Below are positions 23,355-25,600 of a stretch of 64,000 nt of DNA, piece after piece; within the stretch, counting starts at the first letter, position 1, and each line of letters opens with the position of its first letter. Origin of the DNA: Vibrio orientalis CIP 102891 = ATCC 33934. GTDB taxonomy: Bacteria; Pseudomonadota; Gammaproteobacteria; Enterobacterales; Vibrionaceae. The position numbers and the translations under genes are program-made. Where the stretch lies: positions 620,001 through 684,000 of the forward strand of contig NZ_ACZV01000005.1 of NCBI RefSeq assembly GCF_000176235.1, given 5' to 3'. The notes below the pieces were generated by a model. That model ran no database searches. It saw only the letters and a program-made list of their open reading frames with translations, and was not told where the DNA came from.

Positions 23355-23358
23355 AATT

Positions 23359-23388
23359 AAAAACCCTAGCAGAAATGCTGGGGTTTTT
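23359..23388 (+). terminator. Terminator of the tRNA operon
   Basis: AAACCCTAGCA / TGCTGGGGTTT hairpin with a GAAA tetraloop and T run, directly after the last tRNA. Confidence 0.92.
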
Positions 23389-23567
23389 GCGTTTTTACCC
23401 ATCTAACGTCTAATCAACTTCATCCATATCCCGCCTTTAAGCCAATGTTGTTTTAATACGCATTTAGCCTGATTTTTGCGCATACTTTTAGTGCTTTTAT
23501 TTTAAAATCAAATAAAATACCCATGAATGATAAATGACTATCACACGAATTAATGAGGTAAATGCAT

Positions 23568-24086
23568 ATGAATAGAGCAAAAGGGTTACTGACAATGTTT
23601 CTATTCGTCGCTGCTTTTATCGCTGTACCGGCAAAAGCAGAGTCTATTGCCTCGTTTCCTAAAGACTTCTTAGACTGGCCGGTAGTAAAAGAGTCCGTCA
23701 ATTTGCCTGCCGACGCTGTACTCCCTCCAGATACATCACTTTTTATTCAAGAGTCTGTTAGAGCTTATAGCTGGATCAATAATGGTCTAGGCTCACCGTT
23801 AACGATTCGGGTTCACCCAAATAAGCTGGCAGAGTACCGCACGCATGGCCCCTATAGTGATGGGCCGACCGCCGTTGCGGTATCAGAGGCACAAGGTATT
23901 GTGTGGGTAACGGAACATATTGGTGGGGAAGCGGTGTATGGCAGCTATAATCGTCAAGGTAAAGACATTAGTCACCAGCACCCTTCGTTACAGCCGACAT
24001 TTTGCCAAAGCTGCCACACAACCTATAAAGATATCTGTATCAATGGGACATGCGCAGAGCCTGTTCTAGATGTATACAGCGAGTGA
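23568..24086 (+). CDS. Periplasmic c-type heme protein, cytochrome P460-like
   Basis: Exported protein of about 172 aa. The signal peptide runs to about AVPAKA. The body resembles cytochrome P460-type domains (WPVVKESVNLP, RTHGPYSDGPTAVAV, VWVTEHIGGEAVYGSY). One heme-attachment motif, CQSCH, sits near the C-terminus, followed by further cysteines (DICINGTCAEP). ATG 23568 is at a better distance from GAGG than the ATG two codons earlier. Its stop overlaps the start of a membrane diguanylate cyclase, so it is likely a heme subunit that reports redox state or a gas ligand to that enzyme. Heme binding is strongly suggested; the pairing is inferred from overlap only. Confidence 0.68.
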   Translation: MNRAKGLLTMFLFVAAFIAVPAKAESIASFPKDFLDWPVVKESVNLPADAVLPPDTSLFIQESVRAYSWINNGLGSPLTIRVHPNKLAEYRTHGPYSDGPTAVAVSEAQGIVWVTEHIGGEAVYGSYNRQGKDISHQHPSLQPTFCQSCHTTYKDICINGTCAEPVLDVYSE

Positions 24087-25600
24087 CCCGTTCCTTGAAG
24101 TTAAGAAAGCTACCTAAAAGGTTTGTAACCAAGCTATCGATCAACCAAATGTTAGTTGTATCGCATATGTTGTTGGTGTTGATACTCATATCGGGTTTCA
24201 GCTATACCCGATACCAGAGTGAGTGGAACAGACACATAGAGTATTCTGCCAGTCTAGCTAAGCTTACCCTTGCCCCACATATTTCATTTATTTCCACGTC
24301 TGTTGCTGGTCTCAATTATGCCAATCTGACTATGCCCGCGACGAAGGATTTGTTTGGAGCCATTGATGATCTCGAGTTTCTTGATATTACAGGGCAGTCC
24401 GATTATTCCTCTCAGACGATCCATGTCAGTTACTTTAAGCGTTTGGAATATTTGTGGCGTGCAGATGTTAGTCAGGAAGAACTGAAAGAATTGGAAAATA
24501 AGCTTTCACAGCTAAAAGATCAGATTGAGGCGACTGCCCCTGAGAACGTCATCCGACATAAGAAGCTCCAATTCATCCAAAATCGGGTGAAGCGTGAATA
24601 TGATGCGGTAACTGAGAGTATCTTTGCCTCCGAGAACATCTATATTCCTTGGCAAAAGTCACCAGTGAATAGTGAAAGTTACTATTTAGACGAAGAGCTC
24701 TGTACGCTCAATATTGTGTTGCCACTTAGGAATAAAAATGGCGGTGAAGTCTGGGCAGTATTTGATGCCAGTGACCTGACAGACCTACAGCATTCGCTGC
24801 TTGAAGAGATCATTGCGGAGGCGATCGTTGCGTTGGCGATTTCACTCGTGCTTATTGGCTGGGTTTCTCACTGGATCGTTTCCCCGCTCAAGTCATTGGC
24901 CAATCATATGCGCTCTGACAACACCAGTGAAAATCTAAACACACTGAGAGAGTTAGAGCGAAGTGATGAAATCGGTCAGTTGGCTCGCGCCTACCAAGGA
25001 CTATTGACTAAGCTGGATCATCAGCTCAATATTCTCCGCACTCGCTCAGATACCGATCCGCTAACGGGACTAGGCTCTCGATATAAGTATTCACGTACCG
25101 CGATTCCATTTCTCAAGCGACATCTTGCCAATGGCCAATATGTTGGCTTGATTATCTGTGATGTGGATAATTTTAAAGCGTTCAATGATATTTATGGTCA
25201 TACAGAAGGGGACAACGCGTTGTCGCTCGTCGGCTCAAAGATGAGTGAAATAGCGAGAGATAGTGATTTGGCATTCCGTTACGGTGGTGAAGAGTTCGTT
25301 CTGCTTTGCGCTCGACCTGAAATGAATCAGTTGATCAGCTTTACACAACGCTTGAGAACCGAAATTGAAGGTTTAAACGTCATTCATGCAGGGAACCAGC
25401 CCTATGGAGCCCTGACAATCTCAGTGGGGGGCTCTGCCGCTTCCTTGAAGGACATCAACGAGCACTTTGTTACTCACCAAGAACTGCAAGAGTCGATGTT
25501 TAATGTCGCTGACAAAGCCCTCTATGTGGGTAAGCAGAATGGGCGCAATCAAGTGACGTGGTCAGGGTGTAAACAAGACCACATCAAAGAATCGGCTTAA
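24083..25600 (+). CDS. Membrane diguanylate cyclase with periplasmic sensor, HAMP and GGDEF domains
   Basis: Makes c-di-GMP. Domains in order: a membrane helix near residues 25-42, a periplasmic sensor region of about 200 residues with a coiled-coil stretch (LKELENKLSQLKDQ), a second helix near 250-270, HAMP (IVSPLKSLANHM), and a GGDEF domain with active-site RYGGEEF. The product-inhibition I-site RDSD lies five residues upstream. I favour GTG 24083, which gives a GTGA overlap with the heme-protein stop; an ATG 33 nt upstream in the same frame is the alternative. The overlap implies translational coupling with the heme protein. The sensor domain is not one I recognise. Confidence 0.88.
   Translation: MTRSLKLRKLPKRFVTKLSINQMLVVSHMLLVLILISGFSYTRYQSEWNRHIEYSASLAKLTLAPHISFISTSVAGLNYANLTMPATKDLFGAIDDLEFLDITGQSDYSSQTIHVSYFKRLEYLWRADVSQEELKELENKLSQLKDQIEATAPENVIRHKKLQFIQNRVKREYDAVTESIFASENIYIPWQKSPVNSESYYLDEELCTLNIVLPLRNKNGGEVWAVFDASDLTDLQHSLLEEIIAEAIVALAISLVLIGWVSHWIVSPLKSLANHMRSDNTSENLNTLRELERSDEIGQLARAYQGLLTKLDHQLNILRTRSDTDPLTGLGSRYKYSRTAIPFLKRHLANGQYVGLIICDVDNFKAFNDIYGHTEGDNALSLVGSKMSEIARDSDLAFRYGGEEFVLLCARPEMNQLISFTQRLRTEIEGLNVIHAGNQPYGALTISVGGSAASLKDINEHFVTHQELQESMFNVADKALYVGKQNGRNQVTWSGCKQDHIKESA

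Follow-up and report, generated by a model that had tools for sequence, protein, structure and literature searches.

Pairs of a separate periplasmic protein and a diguanylate cyclase include YfiR-YfiN (TpbB), which is the best known of them, and NspS-MbaA. The closest described system to the one reported here is that of the 2026 sCache_heme work (PMC12889525), which concerns heme-containing Cache domains (DUF3365/Tll0287, sCache_heme) whose fused forms show NO-sensor properties. As for the cytochrome P460 / cytochrome c'-beta superfamily, passages of a 2025 review discuss enzyme and gas-binding roles, namely the oxidation of hydroxylamine by cytochromes P460 and the protective binding of NO by c'-beta proteins (PMC11928373). 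Here we describe a gene pair of Vibrio orientalis within the window, i.e., the whole stretch of 64,000 nucleotides that was analyzed. Judging from sequence comparisons, its first product (P1) probably serves a Cache-like sensor domain, whose output is either c-di-GMP or chemotaxis, as a detachable co-receptor with a c-type heme.

P1 (23568..24086, plus strand; 172 amino acids) was classified as an exported, c-type cytochrome-like protein of the P460 superfamily on the basis of its open reading frame, homologs and profile relation. Its ATG start is preceded by a ribosome site of the GAGG type at a distance of about 9 nt and followed by a predicted signal peptide read from the sequence, MNRAKGLLTMFLFVAAFIAVPAKA (23568..23639, plus strand), that terminates in ...VPAKA. 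Among the homologs the position and hydrophobicity of this peptide are kept and its sequence is variable. Near the C-terminus lies the CXXCH heme-c motif CQSCH (C146-H150; 24003..24017, plus strand), invariant in sets of 27 and 28 homologs. An exported CXXCH protein had been proposed in the preliminary description, and both the signal peptide and the invariance of the motif bear this out. P1 is also the most conserved part of the pair, with a mean difference of 26% versus 62% for the sensor domain and 60% for GGDEF. The host genome encodes CcmE (a ccm gene). H117 and H138, the two conserved histidines outside CXXCH, are missing from one copy (L169), and H117 was for this reason dropped as an obligatory axial heme ligand.

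The second gene (P2; 24083..25600, plus strand) encodes a predicted membrane diguanylate cyclase of 505 amino acids, as indicated by its open reading frame and domain matches. Its GTG start overlaps the stop of P1 by 4 bases, with GTGA lying across the TGA. This overlap had been pointed out beforehand and is present in the window, being shared by 3 of the 37 pair copies examined; elsewhere the spacing ranges from -29 to +36 nt. On the plus strand, P2 is arranged as a predicted first transmembrane helix (24140..24205; a hydrophobic stretch aligned with relatives), a periplasmic sensor domain that has a G-x-N-Y-A-N motif and is shared with chemoreceptors (24212..24796; from alignments and an AF2 model), a predicted second transmembrane helix (24821..24886; a hydrophobic stretch), a HAMP domain (24860..25015; PF00672, 1.9e-6) and a GGDEF domain (25049..25552; PF00990, 6.2e-32). 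The GGDEF domain and its GG[D/E]EF active site predict diguanylate cyclase activity for P2. The active-site GGEEF (25283..25297, plus strand) and the inhibitory I-site RDSD (RxxD; 25256..25267, plus strand) were both read in the window sequence, as initially claimed, although the I-site is present in about half of the P2 relatives and is not a family trait. Since the overlap is rare and the I-site occurs in about half of the relatives, the conserved traits are limited to adjacency, CXXCH and GGEEF/GGDEF.

The description of P2 as a HAMP-GGDEF protein with an unrecognized periplasmic domain also held, as its periplasmic part had no match in Pfam. When 27 members of the sensor domain were queried against Pfam, no Cache family was among the matches, and a PDB sequence search with the sensor profile returned nothing. 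The AF2 model of the domain (pLDDT 92.6) has a long N-terminal helix and six strands, with a helical hairpin inserted between the third and fourth strands; the predicted topology agrees with the long helix and PAS-like sheet of Cache sensors. The closest neighbors of this model in the PDB were Cache domains, at insignificant values (E 0.14-0.6, TM 0.3-0.4), and the modeled domain may accordingly be called Cache-like in topology only.

Near relatives of the pair for which a name is given belong to Vibrio. A P1-only scan of GTDB genome contigs retrieved 28 loci from Vibrio, Enterovibrio, Grimontia, Veronia and Psychromonas, and in these together with the loci of the relatives search a P2-like protein was found just downstream in 37/37 cases (at L024 the downstream frame is interrupted and reads as two open reading frames). 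All surveys before the order survey gave 52 distinct P1 loci after the removal of duplicates, and at 50 of them a homologous sensor was encoded on the same strand no more than 500 nt away. One more (L168/L169) had a more divergent methyl-accepting chemotaxis protein (MCP) directly downstream, and another was a fragment at a contig end, outside the testable set. The order survey contributed five further P1-receptor pairs. In total, a membrane receptor was directly downstream on the same strand at 56 of the 56 testable distinct P1 loci (51 HAMP-GGDEF proteins or broken copies of them, and 5 distant MCPs), which shows that the arrangement is not due to chance, even if the counts are non-independent events because many loci come from one family. 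The fragment at the contig end (G375, L043:456-1712) adjoins a divergent PAS-sigma54 activator gene, which may be a third kind of P1 partner.

Independent searches with P1 and with the sensor were run on one set of 399 genomes of the phylum. Each matched five genomes, identical for both searches, so that the pair is infrequent overall (3 of 212 genera). The pair was also detected in another class of the phylum, and its presence in several unrelated genomic settings indicates that it moves as a unit. No relatives were found in viral contigs, and PLSDB yielded a single record, a V. campbellii replicon with a broken pair. In V. campbellii LJC015 (NZ_CP050465.1; L170:6001-6830) the coding sequence of P1 is divided between two frames and that of the cyclase breaks off about 130 residues in, so that both genes appear to be broken together. 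In the second pair of genome G798 (L146:1471-3458) P1 is intact and the cyclase is interrupted by a frameshift or stop.

From the sensor side the linkage was less strict. The periplasmic-only profile A3, which replaced an alignment of sensor plus HAMP (A2) that had matched nearly every genome via HAMP, detected the sensor in 28 of the 148 Vibrio genomes. P1 was located upstream at 50 of the 56 distinct sensor loci from the surveys before the order survey, leaving six without it. Among the latter, L121, L122 and L142 belong to genomes that carry a P1-receptor pair elsewhere; L121 and L142 occupy the same pgsA-tRNA locus as the window, as probably does L122, judging by its GSDH neighbor. The sensor-only genomes G708, G757 and G804 had no P1 anywhere in the genome, and the sensor is truncated in G757 and shortened in G804. 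These six loci and the P1-free genomes G708 and G804 imply that some receptors work, or have decayed, without P1. Co-occurrence across genomes, put forward as a check in the preliminary description, was thus complete for the testable P1 loci and incomplete for the sensor, and the proposed refutation, genomes with the two genes regularly separated, was sought and did not appear on the P1 side. The dependence of P1 on the receptor seems stronger than that of the receptor on P1.

Next to P1 the output of the receptor can change. An MCP follows P1 in genomes G094, G271 and G371 and twice in G437; MCPsignal was detected in the two MCPs scanned (1e-47 and 1e-45), and the others were read by eye. The periplasmic domain of MCPs from all four genomes aligns with the P2 sensor, G-x-N-Y-A-N included, and the second P1-MCP pair of G437 is much more divergent and has a shorter sensor. 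The sensor domain is thus the same in 4 of 5 MCP partners, and short and divergent in the fifth. This pairing of P1 with MCPs that bear a P2-type sensor identifies the sensor domain, not the output, as the constant partner. Consequently, c-di-GMP is one of two outputs. The proposed coupling of a heme protein to c-di-GMP is supported in part, by the conservation of the two genes as a pair. P1 distances correlate with those of the sensor (r 0.73, Mantel p 0.0005), and the partial correlation is 0.54 for P1 and sensor given GGDEF and 0.05 for P1 and GGDEF given the sensor; that is, P1 distances follow the sensor domain and not GGDEF. In G437 a P1-MCP pair was observed inside a chemotaxis cluster that also encodes a CheW-like protein and a response regulator resembling CheB (L109:1439-6888).

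The superfamily with which P1 was compared is represented by PF16694 and structures 2je2, 6hiu and 6hih. By itself, the window P1 had no Pfam match (its P460 score was below threshold), and the Cytochrome_P460 model matched 19 of 27 P1 relatives weakly, with one MCP-linked relative (L045) scoring 27.1 bits versus a cut-off of 27. A profile-profile comparison by hhalign between the P1-family alignment (A4) and a profile of 29 P460-family proteins (A5) gave an E-value of 9.7e-9 over 100 columns, with the alignment running through CXXCH. The P460-like character first suggested for P1 is therefore supported, and by sequence profiles it belongs, as a divergent member, to the cytochrome P460 / cytochrome c'-beta superfamily. 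Foldseek was tried as another route to its identity, and the heme-free AF2 model of P1 had no structural match in the PDB, cytochrome P460 included; this route was replaced by the profile-profile comparison, and it is on sequence profiles that the assignment rests.

Passages of the P460 review give Lys70 as the heme-linking residue of the Nitrosomonas europaea cytochrome P460 (PMC11928373). In the alignment to 2je2 this residue faces Ala104 of P1, within V103-A104-V105 (23874..23882, plus strand), and the register is fixed by the Arg44Ala mutant 8gar, as its substitution can be seen in this alignment. The corresponding position is Ala, Gly or Leu in the P1 copies read (L146 by eye), so that the lysine that marks cytochromes P460 in the strict sense, as hydroxylamine oxidases, is missing from every one of them. 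According to passages of the same review, lysine-free members of the superfamily are cytochromes c'-beta, for which NO/CO binding has been proposed (PMC11928373). We counted the agreement of the lysine-free pocket with this gas-binding pattern in favor of the two-protein sensor proposed below.

In the window, pgsA and a series of tRNA genes lie upstream of the pair, and a putative terminator-like hairpin after tRNA-Gly (23358..23389, plus strand; consensus scan) parts the pair from the tRNA operon. The pair adjoins a convergent GSDH-family gene. A promoter scan gave sites that were no more numerous than in shuffles. A fusion of a nucleoside hydrolase-like and a glyoxalase/VOC domain, about 490 amino acids long, directly follows the pair at 12 of 34 loci (e.g., L004:2937-4418 and L048:8158-9621) and is not beside it in the window. 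In the V. harveyi clade, the P1-cyclase pair is followed by a nirB-type nitrite reductase gene (L003:2929-5493; nirB was found in three loci) and also, at L003, by a Rieske-type nirD-like gene. Hemerythrin-domain genes occur within about 4 kb of MCP-linked P1 in two related genomes (L044:9291-9734 and L045:1693-2283). Near the same two MCP loci lies a 431-aa membrane protein, for which an NnrS-like identity was dropped for want of a Pfam match. Our leading guess for the P1 ligand is NO, a tentative choice given less than even odds and favored by the absence of lysine as in c'-beta proteins, nirB at three loci and hemerythrin near two MCP loci, the genomic context being an anecdotal hint. Redox state, as the main alternative, or another small ligand shares the remaining probability.

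We consider it likely from these sequence relationships that P1 and P2 together constitute a transmembrane sensor of two proteins, in which the heme state of P1 would alter docking on the Cache-like domain and hence c-di-GMP output. P1 would be exported and receive a covalent c-type heme at CQSCH from the Ccm system. Its heme state (a bound gas, most likely NO, or redox) would then change how it docks on P2, and this change would be relayed via the second transmembrane helix and HAMP to the GGDEF dimer, altering c-di-GMP synthesis. In other bacteria the module of P1 and sensor domain would drive a chemoreceptor instead. The linkage, the common sensor, the output swap, the P460 ancestry, the loss of lysine and the intact cyclase motifs support this reading, and the joint breakage of both genes in V. 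campbellii LJC015 and the CcmE of the host genome were also counted for it. The empty Foldseek search, the six sensor loci without P1 and the loss of H117 and H138 in L169 were counted against it. Heme loading of P1, its contact with the sensor, the ligand and the direction of control are inferred, and P1 may either activate or inhibit P2.

Alternatively, P1 could be an enzyme or a scavenger of NO or peroxide that is merely co-regulated with a receptor sensing another input, or the product of P1, without contact. Hydroxylamine oxidation by P460 and protective NO binding by c'-beta proteins, as covered in passages of the review (PMC11928373), would suit such a role, as would the six sensor loci with no adjacent P1. 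However, P1 keeps the sensor domain across the change from GGDEF to MCP output, its distances track the sensor and not GGDEF, the P460 catalytic lysine is missing from every copy read, and P1 was never found apart from such a receptor. We therefore regard such an enzyme or scavenger as unlikely.

It is also distinctly improbable that P1, instead of being a heme protein, is a periplasmic regulator of the thiol/disulfide or metal-binding kind that acts on P2 as YfiR does on YfiN. On the one hand, YfiR/YfiN is a precedent for a periplasmic-protein/cyclase pair, and P1 has four invariant cysteines. The second pair (C157 and C162; 24036..24053, plus strand), probably a disulfide, was defined from the homolog alignment, and the full pattern, C-x2-CH-x6-C-x4-C, was present in 28/28 homologs and also in L169, the copy that diverges most. 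Single P1 members match small Cys-rich Pfam families weakly, and confidence is low around the cysteines in the AF2 model (pLDDT 85.5; heme-free, built on 27 sequences). On the other hand, the full-length profile alignment pairs CXXCH with the heme motif found in the P460 superfamily, and the histidine after the second cysteine of CXXCH is invariant. Finally, a merely historical linkage of co-inherited, functionally uncoupled genes is highly improbable: most copies are from Vibrionaceae and close relatives and so are non-independent, but the differing genomic settings, the other class, the two outputs and the occurrence in 3 of 212 genera make passive linkage unlikely.

Having weighed these, we put somewhat better than even chances on a P460 / c'-beta cytochrome turned into an exchangeable subunit that docks on a Cache-like receptor, serving c-di-GMP or chemotaxis and possibly reporting NO or redox. 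If this is true, the superfamily would gain a function in signaling, and both c-di-GMP and chemotaxis would receive an additional input from periplasmic heme. Marine Vibrio and their relatives would then have a testable means of reading, from outside the cytoplasm, NO, stress derived from nitrite or the state of respiration. The G-x-N-Y-A-N sensor in turn constitutes a family of receptor domains that has no name yet, and gene linkage reveals its partner protein.

P1 is probably an undescribed plug-in sensor subunit, in keeping with the earlier statement that no described system of this exact form was known, as none was found in the open-licence papers searched. There, P460 combined with a diguanylate cyclase or chemoreceptor gave no relevant paper, and, for c-type heme or a cytochrome together with a diguanylate cyclase, the titles and abstracts listed concerned solely single-chain or unrelated systems. 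A review of c-di-GMP sensing had no cytochrome or P460 entry, and the P460 review named no signaling or receptor partner in its section on occurrence and roles or under the terms searched (PMC11928373).

Like P460 and c'-beta proteins, P1 is exported, has a C-terminal CXXCH and aligns over the block P-x-x-[WYF]-x-x-[WFL]...N-P...[YFW]-x-D-G. Unlike them, it has an insert of about 26 residues after the first strand, a shortened loop after the second, no cross-linking lysine, an invariant second cysteine pair and a linked receptor. As in YfiR-YfiN, a separate periplasmic protein is encoded beside a TM-HAMP-GGDEF cyclase, and P2 residues 210-483 match the DgcN/YfiN model far below its cut-off (99.4 vs 325 bits). 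P1 had no YfiR-type match in Pfam or NCBIfam and no solute-binding-protein match in Pfam; it differs from YfiR-YfiN in bearing a heme-c motif and in that its partner sensor domain is also found on chemoreceptors. With sCache_heme the pair has in common periplasmic c-type heme signaling, the heme of P1 being predicted. Neither P1 nor the sensor matched DUF3365, and the sensor is devoid of CXXCH. Proteins with sCache_heme carry the heme motif within the Cache domain itself, in a single chain, whereas in P1 and P2 the motif and the Cache-like domain are on two proteins.
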